From NCBI GenBank assembly GCA_000526255.1, contig JAFS01000001.1:1054001-1118000 (forward strand): a stretch of 64,000 nucleotides of DNA. The letters run 5' to 3'. The notes beneath the pieces are model-generated. The model ran no database searches and was not told the origin of the DNA. It worked only from the letters and a program-made list of their open reading frames with translations. How positions within the stretch are numbered: the first letter of the stretch is position 1; each line of letters opens with the position of its first letter. This stretch comes from Verrucomicrobia bacterium LP2A (GTDB lineage Bacteria > Verrucomicrobiota > Verrucomicrobiia > Methylacidiphilales > Methylacidiphilaceae). Shown here in pieces: positions 28,854-45,548 of this stretch. Position numbers and translations under genes: made by a program.

Positions 28854-30224
28854 TCATGTGAGTCGAGGTACTCCAAGTTCGTCGAAGTATTTGACGGTGA
28901 GGACGCGATTCAAGCCCGCTTCGCTGTGGCCCCACCAGTGCCCGGCACCACCTGCGATTTGCGCTGCCAACTCATGATTCGCCCCCAGCGCCCTGAGCCG
29001 ACTGTAAACAGTCCTCCCGGTGCGCCAGTGCTTGAGCTGGATCGCGCGGAGTCGGTGCCTTGTCCATGAATCCAGGTCTTTAAACGCCTGAGGGGTTTGC
29101 GCGATCCGGAAGTAAGACTTCCATCCCGGCAGATATTCCCGCATCTGCTCTGCGATCTGCACCATGCCTTTGCCACCAACCCGTCGTGTGATGAGCCGTA
29201 TACGTTGTTTGAACGTGTCGAGCGCCTTAGGCGCGACGGCAATCTTGACCGTGCCCTTGGTCCACCGCCGTAGGCCGTAGCCAAGGAAGTTGCGGCCAAA
29301 GACCGGTCCCACTTCGGTTTTCTTCTCGTTCACCACCAGATGGAGCTTTGCATTTAGCTTTCTCGGCAATGCCAGCACCCGCTCGCCAGCCTTCTGACTG
29401 CGCACGTAAACGTTGCAGTCATCGGCATCACGCGCAAAGCGATGACCCCGCCGTTGCAGGTCTTGCTCCACTTCGTCCAACAGCACATTGGCCAGGAGCG
29501 GTGAGAGGGGGCCGCCTTGCGGCGTCCCTTCTGATCTGTCCATCACCACGCCACCCGGCATGATCCCTGCCTGCAAGTAGAGCCGAATCAGCCGCAGAAC
29601 GGCCTTATCGGCAATGCGCTTGGCAAGCCGGTCCATGAGGATGTCGTGATTGACCCGATCAAAGAACTTCTCCCAATCCACATCGACCACCACCTGAAAA
29701 CCTTCCTGCACATATAGCTGGGCTTGAAGCACCGCGTCATGTGCACTCCGGCCAGGGCGAAAGCCATGGCTGAATTCAGAGAATGTCGGATCCATCAACG
29801 GCTGCAAAACTTGCAGCAAGGCCTGTTGAATCAGCCGATCCATGACCGTCGGTATCCCCAATTCACGCATGCCGCCTGTCGGTTTTGGAATTTCAACGCG
29901 GCGCACAGCCTGAGGCTGATACTTTCCGGCGATGAGTTCCTTGCGAACCTGCGGCCAACGTTCCTTGAGGTGTTCGGCGGTCTGCTCAATCGTCAGTCCA
30001 TCGACGCCTGCACTACCCTTATTGGCTTTGACGCGTTTCCACGCCGCAGCCATGTTCTCACGCGATAGGACTTGCGTTAGCAAATCGTCTCGCCCCAAGC
30101 CTTCTTGTTGTTGACGCGCCGGGCGTGCTTCATCACGAGCCACATCGACACGGGCTTCATTCGCGCCAACAGTGTCCCGCCCTGGTTGTCCAGGCTTCTG
30201 ATGCGATGCACTTCCAAGCGTCAT
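28854..30224 (-). CDS. ltrA: group II intron reverse transcriptase/maturase with altered YADD box
   Basis: This 456-residue intron-encoded protein has RT blocks 'GSAGVDGLTIEQTAEHLKE', 'IPKPTGGMRELGIPTVMDRL', 'EFSHGFRPGRSAHDAVLQA' and 'SEGTPQGGPLSPLLANVLLD'. These are followed by the maturase (X) domain 'YLPGWKSYFRIAQTPQAF'. There is no HNH endonuclease domain. The catalytic YADD box reads DADD ('HRFARDADDCNVYVRS'), a TAT-to-GAT change. The two catalytic Asp residues remain, but the Tyr that contacts incoming dNTP is lost, which should weaken or abolish reverse transcription. Splicing activity could survive. Confidence 0.9.
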   Translation of the reverse strand: MTLGSASHQKPGQPGRDTVGANEARVDVARDEARPARQQQEGLGRDDLLTQVLSRENMAAAWKRVKANKGSAGVDGLTIEQTAEHLKERWPQVRKELIAGKYQPQAVRRVEIPKPTGGMRELGIPTVMDRLIQQALLQVLQPLMDPTFSEFSHGFRPGRSAHDAVLQAQLYVQEGFQVVVDVDWEKFFDRVNHDILMDRLAKRIADKAVLRLIRLYLQAGIMPGGVVMDRSEGTPQGGPLSPLLANVLLDEVEQDLQRRGHRFARDADDCNVYVRSQKAGERVLALPRKLNAKLHLVVNEKKTEVGPVFGRNFLGYGLRRWTKGTVKIAVAPKALDTFKQRIRLITRRVGGKGMVQIAEQMREYLPGWKSYFRIAQTPQAFKDLDSWTRHRLRAIQLKHWRTGRTVYSRLRALGANHELAAQIAGGAGHWWGHSEAGLNRVLTVKYFDELGVPRLT

Positions 30225-32658: not shown

Positions 32659-33108
32659 ATGGCCCTCTTCTTCCTCGATCTCACCCAGCGCCCGCCACGC
32701 AGCCCACGGCTGCGCCTGGGAGGCCACGTCTGCCTCCCTCGCCTGCTCGACAAGGGGCGAGCCCAGCTCGCCGGCAAGGCGGGCGACTACCGGTACAACT
32801 GCCCGCTCGATCAGCGCTGGTTTGCCTTTACCGGCCTCTCGGCCGATGCCCTTCTCGCCGAGATGGCCAAGGAACGGAGCGATGGCGAGCTATTGGCCTG
32901 GATCGTCACAAACGCACCTCTCCACCGCGACCCATGGGAAATCGCCTCCTGGTCGGCCTTCATGGAGGCCCGCGCTCCCGGGGACGCCGAATCGCACCAG
33001 ATCTTCGCGGAAAAGATCCAAAAGCTCGCCCCGAATCGGGAAGATGTCGTCAGCTGGTTCGACCTCCTCGACCTGGACGACTACGTCTCCTTCGGCGGAA
33101 AGGCCTAG
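32659..33108 (+). CDS. DUF5069 domain protein
   Basis: This 149-residue protein begins with the DUF5069 signature 'DLTQRPPRSPRLRLGGHVCL'. It continues with 'PRLLDKGRAQLAGKAGDYRY' and 'NCPLDQRWFAFTGLSADAL'. It is soluble with no signal peptide. The family is common in Verrucomicrobia and Planctomycetes and has no assigned function. Its TAG stop coincides with the stop of the converging VOC-Nudix gene. Confidence 0.82.
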   Translation: MALFFLDLTQRPPRSPRLRLGGHVCLPRLLDKGRAQLAGKAGDYRYNCPLDQRWFAFTGLSADALLAEMAKERSDGELLAWIVTNAPLHRDPWEIASWSAFMEARAPGDAESHQIFAEKIQKLAPNREDVVSWFDLLDLDDYVSFGGKA

Positions 33109-34085
33109 CCGGCCAGCCGAGCGAGAAGTCGACTCACGAGATCTGCGTTCGGCCCCGCCTCGATCCCCGGATGAGGAGATGCGAGCTTCTCCTCGAGGAG
33201 CCGGCAGGCCGCCAGGATGATCTCCCGATGATCGAAGGCCAGTGGCGGCAGGTCGGGCAGAGGAAACCAACGGACCGCAGCCGCATCGCTGCCGGCGGCG
33301 GCATCGACCGAAGCCGGATCGGCCCAGGCCGCATGGGCGACGCTGACGACGGGTCCGCGCGGATCGCGCCCGGATTTTCCGAAGACCCCGACCTCCCAGA
33401 GTGTGAGCCCGGCGACCCCCGTCTCCTCGAACAGCTCCCGGGCCGCGGCCTGGCGCGGCTCCTCCCCCGCCTCGACGAAGCCTCCCGGCAACGCCCAGCA
33501 GCCCGCATAGGGGGGATTCTTCCGCTCGACCAGAAGGACGGAGATCTCCGCTTGGCGGACGCCGAGCACAACGGCATCAGCGGTCAGGGCAAAACGTGCG
33601 ATGTCGGCCCGAAGGCCGGGAGGCGAAGCCGCCGCGCCCTTCACCCCTCCCTCGGGAACCGAAGGCTTCTGCTCCTCGGTCCGAAAGACAATCCCCTCTT
33701 TCTGGATCTCCCGGTAGGGCAGCAGCCAGACGAGAGACTCGTCATGGAGGTCGACGACCTGGATCCGATTTCCCCATGGGTCGCGAAAATCGCAGCGAAA
33801 ACCAGGAATGAGCGAAAGGCCATACTTCCGGGTGATCTTCTCTCGGACCTCCGCGATCTGCGCCTCGTCCCGGACGAGGAGCCCGAAATGGCGCTCCGAG
33901 CCGCTCCGGAGCTCGGGCACCACGAAAAGGGCGAGGAACTGGTGCTCCCCGAGCGCAAAGAAGGCATCGCCCTCGCCTTGGTCGAGCAGCTCCAGTCCAA
34001 AGACATCCCGGTAGAAGGCGATCGCCTCCTCGCGGCTCCCCACCTCGATCGCGACATGGTTGCACCCATAGACCCGAACGCTCAT
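33105..34085 (-). CDS. VOC (glyoxalase-like) / Nudix hydrolase fusion
   Basis: This 326-residue protein has two domains. Residues 1-120 form a vicinal-oxygen-chelate domain ('GCNHVAIEVGSREEAIAFYR', 'DVFGLELLDQGEGDAFFALG', 'DPWGNRIQVVDLHD'). Residues about 165-320 form a Nudix hydrolase with the complete Nudix box 'GGFVEAGEEPRQAAARELFE', followed by ETGV. The Nudix half looks like an ADP-ribose or nucleotide-sugar pyrophosphatase or Nudix-type regulator ('RFALTADAVVLGVRQAEISV'). No frameshift or stop lies between the domains. A VOC-Nudix single chain is uncommon; the pairing suggests repair or detoxification of a damaged metabolite. Confidence 0.85.
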   Translation of the reverse strand: MSVRVYGCNHVAIEVGSREEAIAFYRDVFGLELLDQGEGDAFFALGEHQFLALFVVPELRSGSERHFGLLVRDEAQIAEVREKITRKYGLSLIPGFRCDFRDPWGNRIQVVDLHDESLVWLLPYREIQKEGIVFRTEEQKPSVPEGGVKGAAASPPGLRADIARFALTADAVVLGVRQAEISVLLVERKNPPYAGCWALPGGFVEAGEEPRQAAARELFEETGVAGLTLWEVGVFGKSGRDPRGPVVSVAHAAWADPASVDAAAGSDAAAVRWFPLPDLPPLAFDHREIILAACRLLEEKLASPHPGIEAGPNADLVSRLLARLAG

Positions 34086-34140
34086 GGGACAATTTTCCGC
34101 AAGCGGGCTGCGAAGCGCAATCCCATTCGCGACGCCTCTC

Positions 34141-34596
34141 TTACTCCGGGCACGCGCGGCTCGAGCGAAGCCAGAAGGTGACCGGGCCCGCATTGATCAG
34201 CGCAACGTCCATTTCGGCGCCGAAGATTCCGCTCGCCACCCGTCCGTGGCGCTCGCGCGCCCGCTCGACCAAGTAGGTGAAGAGCGCCCGTCCGACCTCC
34301 GGAGCGGCGGCGGGGGAGAAGCTCGGGCGGTTTCCCTTCCGGGTATCGGCGGCGAGCGTAAATTGAGGAACGAGGAGCAGACCGCCCTGGGTCTCGCAGA
34401 GAGAGCGGCCCATCCGTCCGGCTTCGTCGGGAAAGATCCGGTAACCGAGCATCCGCTCCAGGAGCTTCTCCGCCGCCGCCTCCCGGTCTTCCCGCTCGAC
34501 GGCGACGAACCCGAGGAGCCCCGTTCCGATCTCGGCGACCGGCTGCCCGGCCACAAGGACGCGGGCCTCCCGCACCCGCTGAATCAGCGCAATCAT
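34141..34596 (-). CDS. dtd: D-aminoacyl-tRNA deacylase
   Basis: This 151-residue enzyme hydrolyses D-aminoacyl-tRNA and glycyl-tRNA(Ala), proofreading chirality. The start 'MIALIQRVREARVLVAGQPV' is canonical. The active-site motifs are 'PQFTLAADTRKGNRPSF' (usually SQFTL) and the cross-subunit 'ALINAGPVTFWL' (NxGPVT). The Ser-to-Pro change before QFTL is a small departure from the consensus. The gene stands alone, downstream of the VOC-Nudix promoter region. Confidence 0.92.
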   Translation of the reverse strand: MIALIQRVREARVLVAGQPVAEIGTGLLGFVAVEREDREAAAEKLLERMLGYRIFPDEAGRMGRSLCETQGGLLLVPQFTLAADTRKGNRPSFSPAAAPEVGRALFTYLVERARERHGRVASGIFGAEMDVALINAGPVTFWLRSSRACPE

Positions 34597-34800
34597 TCCC
34601 TCTCCTCCCGCTCCGGACTCGAAACTCGGGCCCGACGCATCCTGGCCCACTTCCCACCGGAAACCGAAGGAGAATTGCCAGGAATTAAGCTTGCCAGCAA
34701 TCCGCTTCGGACGTAGACGAAGAGAATCGGTTCAATCGCCTCAAGCCTAGGAATGCTCCGAAGTCGTTGGACCACAAATCTCTTCAAGGAGGGAAACGAC

Positions 34801-35025
34801 ATGAAGGATCGTGGCATTGCGCTCCTGACGGCAGCCGCCTTCGCCGGCCTACTGGCGGGATCGGCCCTGCGGGCCAGCGGAGCGGATCTCACCACCGAAT
34901 CGGGCAGCGCGCACGCCCAGATGACGGCGGAAAAGGGAAGCTGCGGACAGTGCAGCGGCAAGAAAGAGAAGAAGTCGAAGAAGAAGAAAAAGAGCAAAGA
35001 GGGAGAAGAGGGCGCGCCGCAGTAG
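34801..35025 (+). CDS. bufferin-like precursor peptide, Lys-rich, single CGQC
   Basis: This 74-residue product starts at an ATG with an excellent AAGGAGGG. Residues 1-27 form a signal peptide ('GIALLTAAAFAGLLAGSALR'). The mature peptide is very hydrophilic and carries two Cys in 'GSCGQCSGKKEKKSKKKKK' (C48, C51) and an acidic end. A strong terminator follows. Then come a DUF692 and a DUF2063 gene, the enzyme pair that modifies Cys residues in bufferins and, as MbnB/MbnC, in methanobactin. This makes it the likely substrate. Known bufferin precursors have several Cys or EGKCG repeats; this one has a single CxxC and a poly-Lys tail, so it would be a divergent type. Confidence 0.65.
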   Translation: MKDRGIALLTAAAFAGLLAGSALRASGADLTTESGSAHAQMTAEKGSCGQCSGKKEKKSKKKKKSKEGEEGAPQ

Positions 35026-35062
35026 GTGCTCCATCGGCTCGCCGCTCGAGGTTTCGTCATGC

Positions 35063-35097
35063 GAAGGCAGGCGGGTTGAGTCGCCTGCCTTCTTTCT
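35063..35097 (+). terminator. intrinsic terminator between precursor and enzyme genes
   Basis: GAAGGCAGGCG (35063-35073) pairs perfectly with CGCCTGCCTTC (35082-35092) across an 8-base loop, and TTTCT follows. Placed after the precursor gene, it should limit read-through so that peptide mRNA exceeds enzyme mRNA, a usual arrangement in RiPP operons. Confidence 0.75.
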
Positions 35098-35125
35098 CCC
35101 CGACGGAGCCCTCTCCCCAGCCGGC

Positions 35126-35983
35126 ATGCCTCTCTGCCGCTTCAACGCCTACTCCCGATACGGCATCGGCGTCGGCCTCCGTCTGCCCCACTACGATCAC
35201 ATCCTGCGGGAGAAGCCGGTCGTCGACTGGTTTGAGCTCCTCTCCGAGAATTTCTTGTCCGAGGGCGGGAGGCAGCGGGTCGTGCTCGACCAGATCCTCG
35301 AGCAATACCGCGTCGTTCTCCATGGCCTCGGGCTCTATTTCGGCTCCGCAGGCCCCCTCGACCGGGACCACCTCCGAAAGATCAAGGCGCTCGTTCGCCG
35401 GACGGAGACTCCCTGGTTCTCGGACCATCTCTGCTGGGGGAGTGCGGACGGACGCTATAGCCACGACCTCCTTCCCCTCCCGTTTACGATGGCGACCGCC
35501 CGTCATACCGCGGCCAAGATCCGCCAGGCCGCAGACTTCCTGGAGGTTCCCCTCTCCGTGGAGAACATCAGCAGCTACATGGAGCTGAGAGCGTCCACCA
35601 TGACCGAATGGGAGTTCCTCTCCGAGGTCGCGGAACAGGCCGATTGCGGGATCTTGCTCGATGTCAACAATATCTACGTCGTAAGCCAAAACCAGGGCTT
35701 CGATCCCTACACCTACCTCGACCAGCTCCCGCGCGATCGCGTCGCCCAGATTCATATCGGAGGCCATAGCCGCCTCTCGACCCACCTTCTCGACACCCAC
35801 GATCAGCCGGTCGCCGATCCGGTCTGGAAGCTCTACGCCCATGCGATCGCCCGATTCGGTTTCACTCCCACCCTTCTCGAGTGGGACGACCGCATCCCCC
35901 CTTTCGAAGAAGTCCATCGTGAAGCCCACAAAGCCGACCGCTTCCTCGCCTCTCTCGCCCCGACCCCTGCCCCGGGCGGATAG
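35126..35983 (+). CDS. bufB: DUF692 (MbnB/BufB-like) multinuclear iron enzyme
   Basis: This 285-residue TIM-barrel protein retains the metal-ligand stations of the DUF692 family: Glu in 'DWFELLSENF', His in 'VVLHGLGLYFGSA', 'WFSDHLCWGS', Glu in 'LSVENISSYM', Asp in 'GILLDVNNIYVV', His in 'QIHIGGHS' and 'LLDTHDQPV', and Glu in 'TLLEWDD'. Family members use an iron cluster and O2 to convert precursor Cys into oxazolone/thioamide or thiooxazole groups. The DUF2063 gene overlaps its 3' end. The likely substrate is the CGQC peptide encoded just upstream. Confidence 0.9.
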   Translation: MPLCRFNAYSRYGIGVGLRLPHYDHILREKPVVDWFELLSENFLSEGGRQRVVLDQILEQYRVVLHGLGLYFGSAGPLDRDHLRKIKALVRRTETPWFSDHLCWGSADGRYSHDLLPLPFTMATARHTAAKIRQAADFLEVPLSVENISSYMELRASTMTEWEFLSEVAEQADCGILLDVNNIYVVSQNQGFDPYTYLDQLPRDRVAQIHIGGHSRLSTHLLDTHDQPVADPVWKLYAHAIARFGFTPTLLEWDDRIPPFEEVHREAHKADRFLASLAPTPAPGG

Positions 35984-36824
35984 CCTCGAGGAGCTCCGCG
36001 AGCTCCAGCGCCTCCTCTTCTCCTGCATCACGAGGCCGCTCGGCCCGGGAGATCGGGTGCAAGGAGAACGCAATCCAGACGAAAACCTGGTTGCCCTGGC
36101 GGCGCGGCTCATCCGTCCCTCGGACCGGCTCGCCCCCTTCGATCGGCTCGAGATCTACCATCGCCAATACTGGCTCCGACTCCGCGAGGCCCTCTCCGAG
36201 GACTATCCGGCCCTGGAGAGCCTGCTCGGCGCCCAGCGCTTCCGCGAGCTCGCCCACGCCTACCTTCTCCACCATCCCCCCCGCTCCCCGATGCTTCCGG
36301 AGATCGGCTCCCGGCTCCCCCGCTTCCTCCGCGAGGAGCCCGATTGGGCGGCTCCCCTCCCGCACCGGCTCGTCGTCGACCTCGCCCGATTCGAATGGGC
36401 CAAGGTCTCGGCCTTCCATGCCCCGGAAGATCCGCTTCCTCGCCGGGAGGAGATGACCACGCCAGAGATCCGTCTCTTTCTCCAGCCCCACCTGAGCCTC
36501 CTCGATCTCCGCTACCCGGTCGAAGCAGAGAACCCGGAGGCGCTCTCCCCCACCTCCGCGCCCCTCCCCGAGCCCCGCCGGGTCGTCGTCCACCGGCAAG
36601 GGGCAACCGTCTACCACAAGCTTCTCCCGCGCGAGGCGTTCTTCCTGCTGGGCTCCTTCGCCAAGGGGCTTTCGCTCCTCCAGGCCTGCGAGCGGACGGC
36701 CGGGAGGTTCCCTGGCCTCGCTCCGGAACGCTTCCGGGAATGGCTCCAGGAATGGTCTTCGCTCGGCTGGCTGGCGACCTCTCCCTCCCCCCGGAGCCGG
36801 CCGCGGGCCTCCAAGACTTCTTGA
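35919..36824 (+). CDS. bufC: DUF2063 (MbnC/BufC-like) putative DNA-binding/partner protein
   Basis: This roughly 300-residue protein carries the DUF2063 N-terminal helical domain ('LEELRELQRLLFSCITRP', 'FDRLEIYHRQYWLRLREALS', 'DYPALESLLGAQRFRELAHA'). A less conserved C-terminal domain follows. In bufferin and methanobactin systems this protein binds the DUF692 enzyme and the precursor leader. It overlaps the DUF692 gene; the GTG at 35919 is a guess, since the frame is open from 35841. Tight translational coupling with the enzyme is expected. Confidence 0.82.
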   Translation: MKPTKPTASSPLSPRPLPRADSLEELRELQRLLFSCITRPLGPGDRVQGERNPDENLVALAARLIRPSDRLAPFDRLEIYHRQYWLRLREALSEDYPALESLLGAQRFRELAHAYLLHHPPRSPMLPEIGSRLPRFLREEPDWAAPLPHRLVVDLARFEWAKVSAFHAPEDPLPRREEMTTPEIRLFLQPHLSLLDLRYPVEAENPEALSPTSAPLPEPRRVVVHRQGATVYHKLLPREAFFLLGSFAKGLSLLQACERTAGRFPGLAPERFREWLQEWSSLGWLATSPSPRSRPRASKTS

Positions 36825-36877: not shown

Positions 36878-37411
36878 ATGGAACTTCCTGAGACTGCTCT
36901 GCCCCGCTGGGAATTTGGTCGGGGAACGGTGCAGAAGGCCCTTCTCCGCTTTTTCCGGATCGCGGTCGCCGTGGCCTTCAACCTGATCATTCTCCTGCTT
37001 CTCTTCGGCTTGGGCGTCGAAATCGTCCGGAGCATCTGGGAGCTCGCTCCGTCTCTGGTCGGAGCCGCCCCGGCCTGGAGCTTCCGGAACGTGGTCGGGC
37101 GAACGCTTTCGCTCGTGGTGCTCCTCGAGCTCCTGCGTGCCTTCGTCGAGTACTTCCAGTTCGACCGGATTCGGCTCCATGTACTCCTGGAGGCGGCGGC
37201 GGCCTTCGTCCTGCGGGAGCTGATGCTCTCGCTCTTCGACGAGAAGATCTCCGGAATCAACGTTCTGATCTGGAGCGTCGCGGTGGTCGTCCTCGTCCTG
37301 GGGCGGACGGTGGCGCTCCTTTCCCCCCCGCTCCTCGGCGCCGCGCCGAAGCGGACGCTCCCGGGAACGCACCCGGAGGAACCGGGGGAAAAGCGGCAGC
37401 CGGCGAACTAG
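36878..37411 (+). CDS. PsiE-like membrane protein
   Basis: This 177-residue protein has four transmembrane helices (around residues 28-50, 70-95, 112-128 and 138-155). Typical PsiE stretches are 'LSLVVLLELLRAFVEYFQ' and 'LHVLLEAAAAFVLRELML'. PsiE is a phosphate-starvation-inducible inner-membrane protein of unknown role. It lies 53 bp after the DUF2063 gene. Bufferin operons usually end with a DoxX-type membrane protein, so this protein might take that place, or might be unrelated. Its stop overlaps the converging hypE stop by 4 bases. Confidence 0.75.
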   Translation: MELPETALPRWEFGRGTVQKALLRFFRIAVAVAFNLIILLLLFGLGVEIVRSIWELAPSLVGAAPAWSFRNVVGRTLSLVVLLELLRAFVEYFQFDRIRLHVLLEAAAAFVLRELMLSLFDEKISGINVLIWSVAVVVLVLGRTVALLSPPLLGAAPKRTLPGTHPEEPGEKRQPAN

Positions 37412-38445
37412 CAGATCCGCGGGAGTTGCTCCCCGGGGAGAAGCGGGAGCGGGCGCCTGCCGCCGATCGCGCTTCGCAGGAGCGTCTTGCCCGGATGCTC
37501 GCCCGCCACCCAACCGATCGCGGCGGCCTGCGGCCATCCGCTCTGCTGGATCTCGAGCAGCGCTTCTTCGGCGATCTCGGGCGCCACGACCGCAACGAAG
37601 CGCCCTTCGCAGGCCACATAGAGGGGATCGAGCCCCAGGAGCTCGCAAGCGGAGCCGACCTCCTCTCCCACGGGAATGAGCGCTTCCTCGACCTCGATGC
37701 CCTTGCCCCCCTGCTGAGCCGCCTCGGCCAGCACGGTTGCGACTCCGCCCCGGGTCGCATCCCGCAGAAAGTGGATTTGGGTTCCGAACCGGTCGAGCAG
37801 CCGGAGCACGGTCCGATGCAGAGGGGCGGTGTCGCTCTCGATCGCCGATTCGAAGGAGAGTCCTTCGCGCACCGAGAGGATCGCCACCCCATGGTCCCCC
37901 ACCGGCCCATTGAGCAGGATCCGGTCGCCCACCTCCATCCTCCGGGCCGAAATCGCGGCCTCGGGATGGAGATCGCCCACCCCGGTCGTGTGGAGGAAGA
38001 TCCGGTCGCCCTTGCCCCGCTCGACGACCTTGGTGTCCCCGGTCACGATCGCCACCGAGCAGTCGTTGGCCGCCTGGCGGATCGAGCAGAGCACCTTCCA
38101 GAGCTCGGCGATCGGAAGCCCTTCTTCCAGGATCAGGCCGAGGGCCAGATAACGGGGCCGGGCCCCGCACATCGCCAGATCGTTGACCGTCCCGTGAACG
38201 GCGAGCGTTCCGATGTCCCCGCCCGGAAAGAAAAGGGGAGAGACGACGAAGCTGTCGGTCGTGATCGCGATTCGGCCTGCCGTAGAAACGATCGCCCCGT
38301 CATGCTGCTCGGCCAGCGCGGGATGGGAGAAGAGTCCAAAAACGGGCTCGAGGAGCTTTTGCATCAGCATCCCCCCGCTCCCATGGCCGAGCTGGATCTC
38401 CGAGAAGTCGAGCTTTGGGAGAGGGCAGGAGAACGCGGGATTCAT
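37408..38445 (-). CDS. hypE: hydrogenase expression/formation protein HypE
   Basis: This 345-residue enzyme dehydrates the carbamoyl group placed on its C-terminal Cys by HypF, yielding the thiocyanate that supplies CN ligands to the NiFe site. The N-terminus 'IQLGHGSGGMLMQKLLEPVF' and ATP-binding parts 'TDSFVVSPLFFPGGDIG' and 'HGTVNDLAMCGARPRYLAL' are standard. The chain ends in '...LPRIC', with the required terminal Cys. The start overlaps the hypD stop by 4 bases (ATGA), so translation is coupled. Confidence 0.97.
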   Translation of the reverse strand: MNPAFSCPLPKLDFSEIQLGHGSGGMLMQKLLEPVFGLFSHPALAEQHDGAIVSTAGRIAITTDSFVVSPLFFPGGDIGTLAVHGTVNDLAMCGARPRYLALGLILEEGLPIAELWKVLCSIRQAANDCSVAIVTGDTKVVERGKGDRIFLHTTGVGDLHPEAAISARRMEVGDRILLNGPVGDHGVAILSVREGLSFESAIESDTAPLHRTVLRLLDRFGTQIHFLRDATRGGVATVLAEAAQQGGKGIEVEEALIPVGEEVGSACELLGLDPLYVACEGRFVAVVAPEIAEEALLEIQQSGWPQAAAIGWVAGEHPGKTLLRSAIGGRRPLPLLPGEQLPRIC

Positions 38446-39566
38446 GGGGCAGAGGCTACGGATTCTTTGGTCTCGGCGCCCGAGGCGAACCCGGCAAAAT
38501 GGAAGTAGGCGGCGCAGGCGCCCTCCGAGGAAACCATCGGCGCTCCCTTGGGGGCGATCGGAGTGCACTTCGTGCCGAAGAGCGGACATTGGGGCGGCTT
38601 GAGGATCCCCTTGAGGATCTTTCCCGCCTGGCACTCCCCCGCTTCCTCGCTCTTTTCCGGATCGAGAGCAAACTTGACGCGCGCGTCGAAGGCCTTCCAC
38701 TCGGAGCGCAGGTCGAGTCCGCTCCCCGGAATCGTTCCGATCCCCCTCCACTCCCGGTCGACTCGCGCGAAGATCCTCGTGAGCAGGGCACGCGCCTCCG
38801 GATTCCCCTCCCGCCGGACGACGCGACCATAGGCGTTTTTCGCCTCCGCCCTTCCCTCTTCCAGAAGAATGACCAGCTCGAGAATCCCTTGGAGAAGGTC
38901 GAGTGGCTCAAAGCCCGTCACCACGATCGGGATCCGGTGGCGCGCCGCCAAAGCCTCGTACTCCTCGCAGCCCATCACCGTACAGACATGGCCCGCGGCC
39001 AAGAAGCCGTCGATCCGGCAGTCGGGATCGGTCAAGAGCGCCTCCATGGCGGGCGGGACGAGCACATGGGCCGAAAGCAGAGAAAAGTTCCGCAGCCCCT
39101 CCCGGGCCGCATGGGCGACCGCCAAGCCGTTGGCGGGGGCCGTCGTCTCAAAGCCGACCGCAAAGAAGACGACCTCTCTTCCGGGGTTCTCCCGGGCGAT
39201 CCGAACCGCCTCGAGCGGAGAGTAGAGCATCCGGACATCGGCTCCGCCGGCCTTGGCTTCCCGGAGGCTCTTCCGCGACCCGGGTACCCGCAGCATATCC
39301 CCGTAGGAGCAGAGGACAACTCCGCGCTCCGCGAGCGCCACCGCCTGGTCGATCAGCCGACGGGGCGTGACGCAGACGGGGCAGCCCGGTCCATGGACGA
39401 GCGTGATCGCCTGGGGGAGGAGGGAGGGGATCCCATACTTGACCAGGTTGTGGGTCTGGCCCCCGCAGACCTCCATGATCCGCCACGAACGGGTGATCCG
39501 GGCTTCGATCTTCCCCAGCAGCCGGAGAACGAGCTCGGGATCGCGATACTCGGAGAGCAGCTTCAT
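38442..39566 (-). CDS. hypD: hydrogenase maturation protein HypD
   Basis: This 374-residue iron-sulfur scaffold, with HypC, assembles Fe(CN)2CO. Key motifs are all present: 'IMEVCGGQTHNLVKYGI', 'VHGPGCPVCVTP', 'FFAVGFETTAPANGLA' and 'AGHVCTVMGCEEYE'. The C-terminal cluster Cys residues follow ('GECQAGKILKGILKPPQC', 'FGTKCTP', 'EGACAAYF'). It overlaps hypC upstream and hypE downstream by 4 bases each. Confidence 0.97.
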   Translation of the reverse strand: MKLLSEYRDPELVLRLLGKIEARITRSWRIMEVCGGQTHNLVKYGIPSLLPQAITLVHGPGCPVCVTPRRLIDQAVALAERGVVLCSYGDMLRVPGSRKSLREAKAGGADVRMLYSPLEAVRIARENPGREVVFFAVGFETTAPANGLAVAHAAREGLRNFSLLSAHVLVPPAMEALLTDPDCRIDGFLAAGHVCTVMGCEEYEALAARHRIPIVVTGFEPLDLLQGILELVILLEEGRAEAKNAYGRVVRREGNPEARALLTRIFARVDREWRGIGTIPGSGLDLRSEWKAFDARVKFALDPEKSEEAGECQAGKILKGILKPPQCPLFGTKCTPIAPKGAPMVSSEGACAAYFHFAGFASGAETKESVASAP

Positions 39567-39859
39567 GGCGATCGCTCTTCTCCCGCTCCGGCAGCGGTCG
39601 GAGCCGCAGCCTCTGCCCCGAGCTCCTCGAGCTCCCCCATCTCCCGAAGCAGGGCGAAGGTCTTCTCCGCCTCGTCCGCATCGACCCGGGCGATCGCCAG
39701 CCCCACGTGGACCAGGACATAATCGCCCACCTGCGCCTCCGGCAGCAGCTCGAGGTTGATCTCCTTGACCACCCCGCCAAAGCTCGCCCTTCCCATCCGG
39801 AAGCCGTCCGGAAAGGGGGTGTAGATCTCCTTCAATTCCCCAGGAATCGCCAAGCACAT
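39563..39859 (-). CDS. hypC: hydrogenase assembly chaperone HypC
   Basis: This 98-residue chaperone begins 'MCLAIPGELKEI', whose Cys2 carries the Fe(CN)2CO unit after Met removal. It also has the family's OB-like body 'ASFGGVVKEINLELLPEAQV', then 'GDYVLVHVGLAIARVD'. The Ala/Glu-rich tail after residue 75 is slightly longer than usual. It is translationally coupled to hypD, and hypF lies 3 bases upstream. Confidence 0.96.
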   Translation of the reverse strand: MCLAIPGELKEIYTPFPDGFRMGRASFGGVVKEINLELLPEAQVGDYVLVHVGLAIARVDADEAEKTFALLREMGELEELGAEAAAPTAAGAGEERSP

Positions 39860-39862
39860 CGC

Positions 39863-42241
39863 CTAACTCCCTTCCTTTTGGAGCGCCGGGAGCGCCACCA
39901 TTCGCCCCGCCGGCACCCGGTTGTCCTCTTTGAGCTCTCCGTTCGCCCAGGCCGAGGCGATCATCTGGCCGAAGGAGACGCTCTCGTCGTTGGGCGAAAG
40001 GTCCCGGCCACTATAGACCGAGAACCGCTCTCCCCACAAAGCCTCGATCAGGTCGACCAGAAGGCCGTTCTGGAAGACCCCCCCGGCGAGCGCCAGCTTC
40101 TGGCCGCCCACCGATTCGGCGACCCGCCCCGCAAGCTCGGCGAGCGAACGATGGAAGCGGAAGGCGATCTCCTCTGGGGGAGTGCCGCGAGCCAGATCCC
40201 CAGCGATCCCTGCGCGCAGGCCCTCGAGGCTCACCACCCCTCCGGAGAGGAGCGGCAGCGGGTAGGGTTGCTCCTCCCTCCACCTCGCCACTCCACCGAG
40301 CGATCGCGCATAGCCAAGGGCCTTCGTCTCGAGCCGGCCCGCCGCCTCGCCCTCGTAGGAGGCGCGGTCGCAGAGGCCCAGGAGGCTGGCCACCCCGTCG
40401 AAGAGCCGACCGACGCTCGTCGTCCGAAAAAACCGGCCTTGTGCGAGAAGGCCCTGGTAGATCGGCCACTCGGCTGGCCGGAACCTTGCCTCCAACCGCT
40501 CCCGCATGGACGCGCAGGAGCCCCAGAGGGCGAGTGCCGAGAGGCGCGGCTCCCGGATCGCCTTCTCGCCCAGGAGCAGCGGAAACTCCTCCAGATGGGC
40601 CATCCGTTCCATCTGCCCTTCCCTCCAGAGGAAAAACTCGCCTCCCCAGATCGTCCCATCCTCGCCCAGCCCGGTCCCGTCCCAGACCGCGCCCAGAACC
40701 GGCTGCCGTTCCCAAAGGAGGGAGTGCTCCGCCAAGACCGCCCAGAAATGGGCCCGATGGTGTTGCACCCTCTCCACGGGGAGCCCCCGCTCCCGCGCGC
40801 GGGCGAGGCCCTCCTCGACCGAGGCGTAGCCAGGATGGAGATCGACCACGATCCGCCGGGGCTCGAACGCGAGCAGCCGACAGAGATGGGCGACCTGCCG
40901 CCGGAAGTTCTCCTGCGCCTCCCAGCTCTCGAGATCCCCCAGGTCCTGGGAGAGAGAGAGGTTCCCTTGGTGGGCCAGGGTGACGGTCGCCTTCCGCTGC
41001 GCCCCCATCGCGAGGATGGCCGCGTCCGGAGCGACCGCGAAGCCCCCGGGCAGGTAGAGTGGGGCAAAGCCTCGGGCGCGGCGCAGGAAAATGGGCTTGG
41101 CCAAAAAAGGAGAAAGCCGGACCACCGAATCATCCAGGGCGCTCTCGATCCCCCGGTTGTGGCTCAAGACCGCATCGACGACGCTCCCCAGGGAACCCAG
41201 GAGCTCCTCCTCGGTCGCCAGGATCGGGGACTCCGAGAGGTTCGCGCTCGTCGCCACGACCGGACCCCTCAGCCGGTCGAGAAGCAGGGCAGGCAGCGGA
41301 GCCGAGGGGAGCATGATGCCCAGGGTCTCCTCTGCCGGAGCGACTCCGGCGGCAATCCGGCTGGGCCCCTCCCTTCGACTGAGGATTACAATCGGCTTCT
41401 CGCGGCGAAGGAGCCACCGCTCCTCTTCCGGGCCGACCCGGGCTTCCCTCCGGGCCGCCGCGAGGTCAGGAAAGAGGAGCGCAAAGGGCTTCGAGGGCCT
41501 CCGCTTCCGCCGGCGCAGCTCGGCGACCGCCCGCGGATCGGTCGCGTCGACCAGCAGCAGGTAGCCCCCGACTCCCTTGAGGGCGACGATCTCCCCCCGT
41601 CCGATCCGCTGCGCCGCCTCCTCGATCGCCCCGCTTCCGGAGGCCAGCGGCGTCCCCTGCGGATCGAGCAGCTCGACCCTGACCCCGCAAGAGGGGCAGG
41701 AGTTGGTCTGGGAGTGGAAGCGCCGGTCGGCGGGGTCTCCATATTCCCGGGCGCATTCCGGACACATCCGGAAGGGCTCCATCGTCGTCCGCTCCCGGTC
41801 GTAGGGCAGCCCGCGGAGGATCGAGTAGCGGGGGCCGCATTCGGTGCAGGTGATGAAGGGATAGTGGAAGCGGCGGTTCCCCGGGTCGTTCATCTCCTGC
41901 CGGCAGCGCTCGCAGAGGTCGAGATCGGGAAGGAGCAGGACCGTCGCCCTCCCGACCCGGCGACTCTCTCGGACCACGAACCCACCATCCTCGCCCAAGG
42001 GCGCCTCCCCGATCTCGGCCCGGGTCACCACGGCGATCGGCGGATAGTCCCGGAGCAGGGCTGCGCAAAAGCGATCGAGCGCCTCGACCTCCCCCTCCAC
42101 CCGGATGTCGACCCCGTCGAGGCCGTTGCTCACCCAGCCTGCCAGCCCCGACTCCCGCGCCAGCCGGTAGACGAAGGGGCGGAAGCCGACTCCCTGAACC
42201 TTGCCGTCCAGATGGATCCGCCGCGCCGCCCGGGAGGTCAC
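39863..42241 (-). CDS. hypF: carbamoyltransferase HypF
   Basis: This 792-residue enzyme transfers a carbamoyl group from carbamoyl phosphate to HypE. The domains in order are an acylphosphatase domain ('GKVQGVGFRPFVYRLA'), a double zinc finger ('LCERCRQEM', 'ITCTECGPRY', 'RMCPECAREY', 'NSCPSCGVRV'), a YrdC-like domain ('IVALKGVGGYLLLVDATD') and a Kae1-like carbamoyltransferase ('VDLHPGYASVEEG', 'HHRAHFWAVLAEH', 'GAVWDGTGLGEDGTIWGG', 'LALAGGVFQNGLLV'). The GTG at 42241 is chosen because GGGAGGG precedes it and it lies right after the transporter stop. Confidence 0.96.
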   Translation of the reverse strand: MTSRAARRIHLDGKVQGVGFRPFVYRLARESGLAGWVSNGLDGVDIRVEGEVEALDRFCAALLRDYPPIAVVTRAEIGEAPLGEDGGFVVRESRRVGRATVLLLPDLDLCERCRQEMNDPGNRRFHYPFITCTECGPRYSILRGLPYDRERTTMEPFRMCPECAREYGDPADRRFHSQTNSCPSCGVRVELLDPQGTPLASGSGAIEEAAQRIGRGEIVALKGVGGYLLLVDATDPRAVAELRRRKRRPSKPFALLFPDLAAARREARVGPEEERWLLRREKPIVILSRREGPSRIAAGVAPAEETLGIMLPSAPLPALLLDRLRGPVVATSANLSESPILATEEELLGSLGSVVDAVLSHNRGIESALDDSVVRLSPFLAKPIFLRRARGFAPLYLPGGFAVAPDAAILAMGAQRKATVTLAHQGNLSLSQDLGDLESWEAQENFRRQVAHLCRLLAFEPRRIVVDLHPGYASVEEGLARARERGLPVERVQHHRAHFWAVLAEHSLLWERQPVLGAVWDGTGLGEDGTIWGGEFFLWREGQMERMAHLEEFPLLLGEKAIREPRLSALALWGSCASMRERLEARFRPAEWPIYQGLLAQGRFFRTTSVGRLFDGVASLLGLCDRASYEGEAAGRLETKALGYARSLGGVARWREEQPYPLPLLSGGVVSLEGLRAGIAGDLARGTPPEEIAFRFHRSLAELAGRVAESVGGQKLALAGGVFQNGLLVDLIEALWGERFSVYSGRDLSPNDESVSFGQMIASAWANGELKEDNRVPAGRMVALPALQKEGS

Positions 42242-42242
42242 C

Positions 42243-42911
42243 CTAGATCCCTCCCGTCCAGAGCCAGAAGACGCCGATCCCGATGGCAAAAGCCCCGGTC
42301 GCCAGGCGGGCGGCACGAAAGCCGCGACTCCCGCGTGCGGCGGGAAGGAGCACCCATCTGCCCAGCACCCAGGAAAAGAGCGCCATCCCGAGGATCGCCC
42401 CCAGCCCAAAACCGGCGATGTATCCCGCGGCCGCCACCCCATTCGGCAGGGCGAGCACCGGGAGGGCGGCGAGAAAATGGTGGCTGCCCGCCACGCCGTG
42501 GAGGAGCCCGATGCCAAGCGGGGCATGGGAGTGCCGGTGCGCCCCGCCCGCTTCCCGGTCGGAAGAGAGCGTTCCCTTCGGCTGAGCGACGGGAAAGGGG
42601 ATCTGGCTCCGGAGAGCGCGCCGACAGGACCAGAGGCCGATTGCCACGAGCACGACGCCGACCAGCCGCTCGCCCCAGTGCGCGAGGGGTGCCGTCGGCA
42701 AGGCGTCCCGCAGCCAGAAGACGAGCAGGCTCAGGATCCAGACTCCGCCGCTGTGCCCGAGCCCCCAGGAAAGTCCCACCCGCCAGGCATCGCTCCGCCT
42801 CTCGATCGAGAGCGGCGCGATCGCCGCCAGGTGATCCGGTCCGGTGAGCGCATGCACGACTCCGGCAATGACGCCCGCGCCCGTAGCGGCGGCAACCAGC
42901 GAGTCGACCAT
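42243..42911 (-). CDS. NiCoT/UreH-like nickel transporter
   Basis: This 222-residue membrane protein has about six hydrophobic helices. The nickel-permease signature HX4DH occurs as 'VVHALTGPDHLAAIAPL' in the first helix. A second His-rich site, 'LLHGVAGSHHFLAALPVL', follows a cytoplasmic His-containing loop ('GGAHRHSHAPLG'). It sits between hypB and hypF within one operon, so supply of Ni2+ for the hydrogenase is the natural role. An AGGAG lies directly against the ATG, unusually close; another start nearby is possible. Confidence 0.85.
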   Translation of the reverse strand: MVDSLVAAATGAGVIAGVVHALTGPDHLAAIAPLSIERRSDAWRVGLSWGLGHSGGVWILSLLVFWLRDALPTAPLAHWGERLVGVVLVAIGLWSCRRALRSQIPFPVAQPKGTLSSDREAGGAHRHSHAPLGIGLLHGVAGSHHFLAALPVLALPNGVAAAGYIAGFGLGAILGMALFSWVLGRWVLLPAARGSRGFRAARLATGAFAIGIGVFWLWTGGI

Positions 42912-42927
42912 CTCCTTTTCGTCCCTG

Positions 42928-43695
42928 CTAACGAGCGACCGGCTCTTCCATCGGGTACGAGGCCTTCGCGCGATGCCACCCCTCCTCCACCCAGTGGAGC
43001 CACTCCTCGAGCCCCTCCCCCGTCTTTGCCGAGAGCAGCAGCGGGTCGAGGCCGGGCCGGAGCCGATGGGCGAACTCGACACACTGGTCTACGGAAAAAT
43101 CGACATAGGGCAGGAGATCCGCCTTCGAGAGGAGGAGAAGGTCGGCTCCATGGAAGGCTTCGGGATACTTGCGGGGCTTGTCCTCCCCTTCGGTCACCGA
43201 GAGGATCACCACCCGCTTCCCCTCCCCCAGGTCGAAGAGAGCCGGGCAGATCAGGTTGCCCACATTCTCGATCCAGAGGATCCCCCGCACCGGGAGCGGG
43301 AGATCTTCGAGCGCGTGGCCCACCCCATGGGCATCGAGGTGGCAGCTCTTGCCCGTCTGAATCTGCCGGACCGAAACGCCCGTGGTGCGGATCCGCTCGG
43401 CGTCGAGCTCGGTCTGCTGATCCCCTTCGATGACCGCCATCGGGATCTTCTCCCGAAGCGCCTCGAGAGTGCGCACCAGAAGGGTCGTCTTGCCCGAGCC
43501 GGGGCTCGAGATCAGGTTTACCGCGAAGATGCCGTTCCGGCGGAAGACCTCGCGATTCTGGCGGGCGAAGGCGGCGTTGGCTTCGAGCAGGTCGGCCTCG
43601 AGGTCGATCCGCCTCCCGCCCCCCGACCCGTGGTGATGGTCGTGCGCATGGGCATGTTCGTGTCCTTCTCCTCCGCATCCGCAAGTGGCGCACAT
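42928..43695 (-). CDS. hypB: hydrogenase nickel incorporation GTPase HypB
   Basis: This 255-residue GTPase opens with 'MCATCGCGGEGHEHAHAHD', containing the high-affinity CxxCGC nickel site and a His-rich nickel-storage stretch. The G1 P-loop is 'LISSPGSGKTTLLVRT'. The metal site in the G domain includes 'SCHLDAHGVGHAL', and 'LLLLSKADLLPYVD' supplies G4. It works with HypA to insert Ni. The start is supported by a GGAAAGGA sequence upstream on its strand. Confidence 0.96.
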   Translation of the reverse strand: MCATCGCGGEGHEHAHAHDHHHGSGGGRRIDLEADLLEANAAFARQNREVFRRNGIFAVNLISSPGSGKTTLLVRTLEALREKIPMAVIEGDQQTELDAERIRTTGVSVRQIQTGKSCHLDAHGVGHALEDLPLPVRGILWIENVGNLICPALFDLGEGKRVVILSVTEGEDKPRKYPEAFHGADLLLLSKADLLPYVDFSVDQCVEFAHRLRPGLDPLLLSAKTGEGLEEWLHWVEEGWHRAKASYPMEEPVAR

Positions 43696-43747
43696 CGCGT
43701 TCTTTCCTTTCCTCTTTCCTTTCCTTTGGGCCACCCCTCGCTCCGGC

Positions 43748-44089
43748 TCAATCGACCTCGATCTCTCCGAGACGGAGCCCGATGTCCTCCTCGAGCATCA
43801 GCCGATAGCTCCCGCAACGCGGGCAGGCTTGCGCAAGCTTCTCCACCTTTCCTTCGTAGGAGCAGTCGAGGCAGGCCGCCTGGGCCGGGACCGGCCGGAT
43901 CTCGAGAAGCGCCCCTTCGGCCAGGGTGCCGCGGGAGGCGACCCCGAACGAGAAGACCATGACCTCCGGCTCCACCATCGCCCGGGGCCCCACGCGCAGC
44001 TCGATCCGGCGGACGCTCCGGTAGTGGTGCTGCTCGGCCTGCTCCTGGAGAATCGCGAGAATCGATCGACAGAGCGAGAGCTCGTGCAT
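43748..44089 (-). CDS. hypA: hydrogenase nickel metallochaperone HypA
   Basis: This 113-residue chaperone has the invariant start 'MHELSLCRSILAILQEQA', whose His2 binds nickel. Its zinc site comprises 'ACLDCSYEG' and 'ACPRCGSYR'. It is the first gene of the leftward maturation operon. Its start faces that of hupS across 211 bp, which must carry both promoters. Confidence 0.96.
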   Translation of the reverse strand: MHELSLCRSILAILQEQAEQHHYRSVRRIELRVGPRAMVEPEVMVFSFGVASRGTLAEGALLEIRPVPAQAACLDCSYEGKVEKLAQACPRCGSYRLMLEEDIGLRLGEIEVD

Positions 44090-44300
44090 CCGTGTCCCTT
44101 TCCCTTCCCGGAGAGCGCCGCCTCGTGTCCGACGCATGTCAGTACAGCTTCGCTCCGATCCGCTCCGGCGTCAGCAGAAAAAGCGCCCGGGCCTTCGCCA
44201 CCAGGTCTGCTTCCGCGTCATCTCCTGCAATCGCTTGTTTTGGGTTGCCTTCGTCGTCATGACAACACTAGGATGGGGGCGAGGAGTGCGGAGGGTGCCT

Positions 44301-45548
44301 ATGCGAGTCTTCGGGAGAGGCGAAGGGGGGGGTTCGGCCGACGGAATCGGGGCGAGGACCGAGTCCGAATACGAAGCGCTCCGCCGCCGCTGCGAAGAGC
44401 GCCTCCGGGCGCTCGAGGCTGCCGAGCCGCTCCAGCAGGTTCATCTCCCCTCCCTCCTGCGGAGCGAGGGCATGAGCCGGCGCACCTTCCTCAAGTGGGC
44501 CTCGGCGACGACGGCTCTTCTCTTCCTGCCCGCCAGCTTCGAGAAGCTCGTGGCCCGTGCAGCGGCGGTCATGAACCGGGTGCCGGTCATCTGGGTCGAA
44601 TACCAGGATTGCGCGGGCAACTCGGAGGCGATCCTGCGGGCAGACGGCCCGACGATCGACGAGCTTCTCCTGGACGTGATCTCCCTCGAATACCACGAGA
44701 CCCTGATGACCCCGTCGGGCTTCCAGGCCGAGGCCCAGCTTGAGGATGCCCTTCAGGCATTCCGGGGGAAGTATATCCTGATCGTCGAAGGGTCGATTCC
44801 GACCGAAGACGGCTTCGGGTTCAACGGCCCGCGCGGGGAGAGCTTCCTCGAGAACCTCAAGCGGCTCTCCCGGGATGCCCTGGCTATCATCGCCGTGGGG
44901 AGCTGCGCCTCCTATGGCGGCATCCCCGCCGCCTATCCCAACCCGACCAAGGCGATGGGCGTCTGGGACATCGTCAAGGGAAAGCCGATCGTCAACATCC
45001 CCGCCTGCCCGATGAACCCCGCCAACCTGATCGGGGTCCTCCTCCACTATGTCCTGACCGGCACGCTCCCCGAGCTCGACTACCTCCTCCGGCCCAAGTT
45101 CGCCTTCGGCTACCGCATCCATGACAACTGCGAGCGGCGCGCTCACTTCGACGCGGGCGAATATGTGGAGCAGTGGGGAGATGAGGGCGCCCGGAACAAC
45201 TTCTGCCTCTACAAGATGGGCTGCAAAGGCCCGATGACCTTCAACAACTGCTCGATCATCCGCTACAACGACGGGACCAACTGGCCGATCGGGGTCGGCC
45301 GGGGATGCATCGGCTGCTCGGAGCCCGGCTTTTGGGACAAGTATGCGTACGAGCGTCCGATGGCTGGAGCCAACATTCCGGTTCCCGGCCTCTGGAACTT
45401 GGGCATCGAGCGGAGCGTCGACCTTCTCGGCGTGGGCCTCTTGACCGCAGCCGGGGCCGGCATCGCGATCCACGCCTTCCTGAGCGCCAAATATGGGAAG
45501 AAATCGGACGAAGGCGCGCCCGGTGCCCCTCCCAAGGAGAAGTCATGA
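44301..45548 (+). CDS. hupS: [NiFe] uptake hydrogenase small subunit with atypical proximal-cluster motif
   Basis: This 415-residue precursor of the electron-transfer subunit has a Tat motif, 'GMSRRTFLKWASATTALLF', about 57 residues from the start at 44301 (GGAGGG upstream), a long N-region. Medial and distal cluster ligands are intact ('RIHDNCERRAHFDAG', 'FCLYKMGCKGP', 'FNNCSIIRYND', 'GRGCIGCSEPGFWDK'). The proximal site usually reads ECTGCSE or, in O2-tolerant group 1d, ECTCCSE. Here it is 'YQDCAGNSEAILRA': the second Cys is Asn. The other two proximal Cys are present ('VGSCASYGG', 'IPACPMNPANL'). A C-terminal membrane helix (about residues 375-395) contacts the cytochrome b. Confidence 0.95.
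   Translation: MRVFGRGEGGGSADGIGARTESEYEALRRRCEERLRALEAAEPLQQVHLPSLLRSEGMSRRTFLKWASATTALLFLPASFEKLVARAAAVMNRVPVIWVEYQDCAGNSEAILRADGPTIDELLLDVISLEYHETLMTPSGFQAEAQLEDALQAFRGKYILIVEGSIPTEDGFGFNGPRGESFLENLKRLSRDALAIIAVGSCASYGGIPAAYPNPTKAMGVWDIVKGKPIVNIPACPMNPANLIGVLLHYVLTGTLPELDYLLRPKFAFGYRIHDNCERRAHFDAGEYVEQWGDEGARNNFCLYKMGCKGPMTFNNCSIIRYNDGTNWPIGVGRGCIGCSEPGFWDKYAYERPMAGANIPVPGLWNLGIERSVDLLGVGLLTAAGAGIAIHAFLSAKYGKKSDEGAPGAPPKEKS

Follow-up and report, generated by a model that had tools for sequence, protein, structure and literature searches.

The window analyzed here, a stretch of DNA of 64,000 nucleotides, contains a locus in which genes for a precursor peptide, an MNIO enzyme and a DUF2063 protein follow each other on one strand, an order of the bufABC type. 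The features of the locus are the following:

34785..34800, plus strand: ribosome-binding site of the precursor gene (CAAGGAGGGAAACGAC), with AGGAGG 5' of the ATG
34801..35025, plus strand: bufA-like precursor gene encoding 74 aa (MKDRGIALLTAAAFAGLLAGSALRASGADLTTESGSAHAQMTAEKGSCGQCSGKKEKKSKKKKKSKEGEEGAPQ) with a signal peptide, a CxxC motif and a Lys-rich tail
35063..35092, plus strand: hairpin with a 12-bp stem and a 6-nt loop, then a T-rich tail (folding, terminator scan and conservation)
35126..35983, plus strand: MNIO (DUF692) of the BufB family, 285 aa, with intact catalytic residues and Asp255 after the catalytic Asp254
35841..36824, plus strand: open frame of the DUF2063 partner (BufC / PME type 1), overlapping the MNIO gene
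36878..37411, plus strand: small membrane protein of the PsiE family (Pfam PF06146, 33.5 bits over 23.9)

In the genus, 7/7 genomes have the precursor, MNIO and DUF2063 genes side by side. Every genus member whose locus reaches far enough also has the PsiE-family gene downstream, and this gene is possibly co-transcribed with the RiPP locus. Among the annotated neighbors we saw neither a copper-responsive regulator nor DoxX nor a copper gene, and the genes adjoining the locus included no identified uptake receptor or transporter. Beside it, at window positions 37408-47245, are hydrogenase maturation genes on the minus strand (AIRS-domain HypE-like, HypD and HypF) and after these, on the plus strand, genes for the small and large subunits of a NiFe hydrogenase. 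A minus-strand ORF at 33105-34193 encodes glyoxalase and NUDIX domains fused in one protein, and a group II intron reverse transcriptase/maturase (RVT_1 and GIIM) is encoded at 28854-30224, also on the minus strand. The host belongs to Methylacidimicrobium, a genus including Methylacidimicrobium cyclopophantes and M. tartarophylax, and its genome carries two pmoA genes. It is therefore a verrucomicrobial methanotroph, an acidophilic one, as the preliminary description had considered.

The sequence AAGGAGG(A/G)AAAC 5' of the precursor ATG is kept in most genus members. Judged by eye, a Sec-type signal peptide spans approximately residues 1-28 with cleavage after SGA; on inspection the N-terminus consists of MKDR, a hydrophobic core and ASGA. 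A Sec signal on the precursor is a trait of bufferin-type loci. The precursor gene is found upstream of the MNIO gene in all seven Methylacidimicrobium genomes (82-93% identity), and a diverged version takes this position in four of the five genomes of the sister genus Methylacidiphilum. The value of omega (Nei-Gojobori) was 0.08-0.21 in distant genus pairs; two near-identical pairs gave 0.38-0.49, resting on just 7-8 changes. Because the ORF occupies the same place in all seven genus members and omega is low in the distant pairs, it is a real gene under purifying selection and not a chance ORF. The ORF itself, the domain scores and the conservation thus confirm the proposed 74-residue exported peptide in front of DUF692 and DUF2063 genes, and the objection that it might lack conservation beside these genes in related genomes failed.

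Both Cys residues of the precursor are invariant in the seven genus members, each of which has a total of two, and each Cys precedes a small or polar residue. The residues between them vary (CGQC, CNQC, CSQC or CSHC), and what is conserved is therefore CxxC with Ser-(Gly/Ser)-Lys-Lys behind it. The CGQC motif pointed out earlier indeed occurs once in the window peptide, but the genus conserves CxxC only. Similarly, the strongly cationic end noted before is real as a local Lys run, whereas the net charge of the mature peptide is just ca. +4 (11 Lys, 6 Glu, 1 Asp).

Domain searches with the precursor against Pfam and NCBIfam returned noise only, the matches to DUF2275 (E 0.1) and HPE1_fam_CxxC (16.7 bits vs 45) being dropped as low-complexity matches. 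Weak matches of the precursor elsewhere in the genomes of the family, all with E > 0.01 and some interrupted by stops, were set aside as Lys/Ala-rich chance matches. At the locus no match to NF050166 (BufA2) was obtained in any of 13 family genomes. DUF2282 (BufA1) and EGKCG repeats are absent from the precursor, and its two Cys compare with four conserved Cys in BufA1 and 6 or 12 in BufA2. Cys-Lys sites number zero in the Methylacidimicrobium precursors and two in those of Methylacidiphilum. A peptide without a domain match of its own and with a low-complexity poly-Lys tail could be an unrelated cationic exported protein that lies beside the enzymes by chance. We regard this as highly implausible: the gene is strictly upstream of MNIO in 7/7 genus genomes and, counting the sister version, in 11/11 MNIO-bearing family genomes, and its signal-peptide pattern (a hydrophobic AALAGL-type core) and Cys/Lys core resemble those of other Verrucomicrobiota precursors in the same position.

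The MNIO gene starts 100 nt downstream of the precursor gene. Its product scored 349.5 bits with the Pfam model MbnB_TglH_ChrH and 335.8 bits with the NCBIfam model MNIO_BufB (NF050167), over the cut-off of 310, and matched PDB 3bww with an E of 7e-59. With the methanobactin MbnB model (TIGR04159) it reached 36.5 bits, far under the cut-off of 325, on which score a methanobactin identity of the locus was rejected. The kinship to methanobactin proposed before, by way of MbnB and MbnC, is distant. We know of no methanobactin in the verrucomicrobial methanotroph lineage. Nine MNIO residues, likely the catalytic and metal-ligand residues (H66, H101, E146, D179, H210, D223, H225, E252 and D254), are invariant in 134/134 relatives. 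The seven Methylacidimicrobium enzymes share substitutions at otherwise nearly fixed positions, e.g. I38L, I39L, Y120F and A212G. Omega of the MNIO gene in the genus was 0.09-0.18, which places this gene under purifying selection as well, and the DUF2063 gene evolves faster (0.25-0.42; both Nei-Gojobori).

The start codon of the DUF2063 gene is uncertain, with a GTG near 35919 as a possible start. The protein scored 72.5 bits with Pfam PF09836 (cut-off 27.2) and 70.5 bits with the NCBIfam HvfC equivalog (NF050145), under its cut-off of 142; HMMER found no solved structure resembling it. The gene lies downstream of MNIO in all 11 MNIO-bearing family genomes. With the MNIO over the BufB cut-off and its partner over the Pfam cut-off, the assignment as a bufABC-type RiPP locus holds. 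The 2.47-Mb genome encodes no MNIO other than the enzyme of the locus, and a search with the BufA2 model found no BufA2-like precursor elsewhere in it. This leaves the peptide next door as the one substrate in sight.

The hairpin between the precursor and MNIO genes folds with -24.1 kcal/mol (z -2.64), is detected by the terminator scan and occurs in one copy in the genome. In all seven genus genomes it forms a conserved island within an otherwise diverged intergenic region. The stem barely varies among these genomes and displays no covariation or compensatory changes, so its support comes from sequence conservation, energy and uniqueness only. No such hairpin is present in the Methylacidiphilum spacer of 54-65 nt. 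We interpret the element as a putative partial terminator or attenuator that probably sets the ratio of precursor to enzymes.

For the origin of the peptide, upstream regions were taken from ca. 130 related MNIOs, mostly of Verrucomicrobiota and Acidobacteriota. A small Sec-type peptide occupies the same place in nearly all of these loci, and most have six Cys with a CKGKNSCKGKGGCKSGDNGCKGKNSCKGKGGC-type core. Outside the family, the nearest enzymes in Verrucomicrobiota and Acidobacteriota lie behind 6-Cys BufA2 or "Cys-Lys" precursors (CKGKNSCKGKGGC), representatives of which gave 49 and 36 bits with Cu_RiPP_BufA2 (E 5e-13 and 5e-9), under the 60-bit cut-off. At the same locus the Methylacidiphilum precursor contains SCKGKQSCKGKKKSKKGE and FAEMSCKGKQSCKGKKKSKKGEE and, in most genomes, a C-terminal Cys pair, and the window precursor contains AEKGSCGQCSGKKEKKSKKKKKSKEGEE. 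The loci thus form a graded series from 6-Cys BufA2-type precursors via Methylacidiphilum (SCKGKQSCKGKKK) to Methylacidimicrobium (SCGQCSGKKEKK). In an MNIO tree (quick method, midpoint root) the two methanotroph genera group together (SH-aLRT 88), nested in a clade (96) whose other members have BufA2-type cores. The preliminary description regarded the peptide as a distinct precursor class; the graded loci and the nested enzyme tree argue against a separate class of unknown origin. The simplest reading of these sequences is a reduced, lineage-specific precursor of the bufferin-2 (captophorin) type that arose by stepwise reduction within the Methylacidiphilaceae. Starting from a 6-Cys ancestor, four Cys would have disappeared along with every Cys-Lys site, and the Lys-rich tail would have been acquired. 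One further locus (L124), on a MAG contig labelled 'Methylacidimicrobium fagopyrum', has an 8-Cys BufA2-type precursor and an MNIO that groups with Limisphaerales-like MAGs; it probably stems from a mislabelled or mixed bin.

Captophorin MNIOs have been grouped by the residue after the catalytic Asp, with Phe in Lys-Cys enzymes and Asp in Cys-Lys enzymes; in models of the latter this Asp touches the Lys of the substrate (PMC12668002, PMC13097082). The window MNIO carries the Cys-Lys signature, Asp255. Among 121 loci with an identifiable precursor, Asp occupies this position in 102, and 95 of these have at least one Cys-Lys in the precursor. The remaining seven lack Cys-Lys altogether, and they are precisely the Methylacidimicrobium loci, all seven of them. 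Enzyme and peptide are therefore out of step in this genus, in which Asp255 was retained and every Cys-Lys was lost. In another family of the class (f10), enzymes with Gly at this position are paired with Cys-Pro repeat precursors (4/4), which fits the published idea of residue specificity.

Other precursors were encountered in the same comparison. Those of the f10 loci L071, L072, L074 and L076 contain 3-5 copies of the repeat DDCPGKDKEKKEE with one Cys-Pro each; the one case searched, L074, gave no convincing NCBIfam match, and these peptides look like a separate Cys-Pro precursor class. Loci L064, L065 and L082 of family f7, from the same order, have precursors with CSGKDGCPAKKEK repeats (Cys-Ser / Cys-Pro) some 280-440 bp upstream of MNIO, and the L064 and L065 enzymes have Ala at the Asp255 position. 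At L078-L081 long precursors of 144-258 aa adjoin MNIOs of 48-52% identity. Their twin-Arg-like N-termini (SRRSFGRF, SRRDFIKTF, SRRKFIGSL and SRRRFLKTI) suggest that some MNIO substrates may use Tat instead of Sec export.

The loss of all Cys-Lys sites next to a retained Asp255 raises the possibility that the peptide is no longer modified, its CxxC thiols and Lys tail being sufficient, and that MNIO and DUF2063 are kept for another substrate or are decaying. The faster evolution of DUF2063 would be in line with this, as would the missing MNIO homologues in one Methylacidiphilum genome (G009) and in a genome of genus g3 (G012), both of which lack the precursor likewise. Against it, the MNIO has an omega of 0.09-0.18 with all catalytic residues intact, no second precursor was found in the genome, and the three genes occur together in 7/7 genomes; we consider it unlikely.

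What the sequence itself shows is the order of the genes, their conservation and the selection on them, the undamaged catalytic residues, the ancestry and the hairpin. We favor a reduced bufferin-2-type locus with a probability of about two in three, for which we infer the modification chemistry, copper binding and regulation, the excess-copper role and the terminator function. In this mechanism the hairpin terminator between bufA and bufB would pass some transcripts only, giving precursor in excess over the enzymes. The MNIO-DUF2063 complex would recognize the signal-peptide region of the precursor and, still in the cytoplasm, oxidize at least one Cys of the CxxC, and perhaps both, to 5-thiooxazole; Sec would then export the modified peptide. 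For bufferins, Cys modification by MNIO-DUF2063 in the cytoplasm, a recognition sequence that includes the signal region, and Sec export followed by copper chelation in the periplasm have been described (PMC12452194). By this analogy the most likely product is a peptide of the periplasm that carries no more than two 5-thiooxazoles and binds Cu(I). Each peptide would hold about one copper at most, and its role would be to buffer excess copper in this acidophilic methanotroph. Excess-copper buffering is taken as the default role since an excess of copper is what known loci for 5-thiooxazole peptides react to (PMC13097082).

Speaking against the bufferin-2 reading, the precursor matches no BufA2 model and has no Cys-Lys site though Asp255 is kept, two Cys are few for a metal buffer, the DUF2063 protein stays under the HvfC equivalog cut-off, and the annotated neighbors include no copper regulator, DoxX or copper gene. 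The locus might instead have been re-purposed for copper supply, with a two-heterocycle peptide forming one methanobactin-like mononuclear Cu(I) site that serves pMMO and not buffering. The two pmoA genes would suit such a role, as would the exactly two Cys, invariant in 7/7 and each before a small or polar residue (C-G/N/S and C-S). Growth of the related Methylacidiphilum kamchatkense ceases when copper is missing (PMC6688271), and methanobactin has no occurrence in a review of verrucomicrobial methanotrophs. Copper supply is nevertheless quite improbable given that the enzyme is BufB and not MbnB (335.8 vs 36.5 bits), that the known 5-thiooxazole loci show a response to copper excess (PMC13097082) and that neither an uptake receptor nor a transporter gene was identified beside the locus. 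We find it distinctly improbable that methanotrophic Verrucomicrobia shrank a bufferin-2 precursor into a two-Cys CxxC metallophore of their own, in which the MNIO with the Cys-Lys signature would modify Cys-Gly/Asn/Ser and Cys-Ser to create one methanobactin-like Cu(I) site of two heterocycles tied to pMMO supply.

Small ORFs that lie upstream of MNIOs and encode a signal peptide and 1-18 Cys have been tabulated by the hundred (PMC12452194, Table S2), and the window peptide or a relative may be among them; the main text of that paper has no mention of Verrucomicrobia or Lys-rich precursors. Our literature search found no papers combining 'verrucomicrob', 'MNIO' and 'precursor', and the review of verrucomicrobial methanotrophs mentions no copper-handling peptide. 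If modified, the peptide with its two Cys would be among the smallest bufferin substrates and a copper-handling peptide for verrucomicrobial methanotrophs, whose pMMO appears copper-dependent. It would also offer a natural way to probe which features the substrate site of the MNIO recognizes, as the presumed Lys-contact residue persists in the enzyme and the substrate has lost the Lys behind Cys. The Methylacidiphilum and Methylacidimicrobium versions offer a ready-made series for swap experiments.

Among known systems, the locus resembles bufferin 2 / BufA2 (Buf_6/12Cys; 'Cys-Lys' captophorins; NF050166) in the order bufA-bufB-bufC, the Sec-type signal peptide, an MNIO that exceeds the BufB cut-off and whose catalytic Asp is followed by a second Asp, and the Lys/Gly-rich Cys core in the precursors of its neighbors in the enzyme tree. 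It differs in having just two Cys, compared with 6 or 12, in lacking any Cys-Lys dipeptide, in its Lys-rich tail, in a precursor that misses the BufA2 model, and in that no DoxX was seen at the locus. With the Buf_EGKCG group (oxazolin, fontiphorin and gonophorin; Lys-Cys captophorins) it shares the enzyme superfamily, the DUF2063 partner and, in the window species, a Gly after the first Cys, but it lacks EGKCG repeats, its specificity residue is Asp and not Phe, and the first substrate-site Arg is followed by Leu20 and not Arg. Methanobactin (MbnABC) has in common with it an MNIO enzyme, two Cys before small residues and a methanotroph host, whereas the window MNIO scores 36.5 vs 325 on MbnB, the precursor has a signal peptide and the partner is DUF2063 (PME type 1). 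Adjamnio-7 also combines a CxxC precursor with an adjoining MNIO, but its precursors have no signal peptides and its MNIO belongs to another cluster (PMC12452194). The Methylacidiphilum bufA-like peptide (L009-L012) has the same locus and family and a Lys tail, but two Cys-Lys sites are still present in it, mostly together with a pair of Cys at the C-terminus, and its intergenic region is shorter and has no hairpin.
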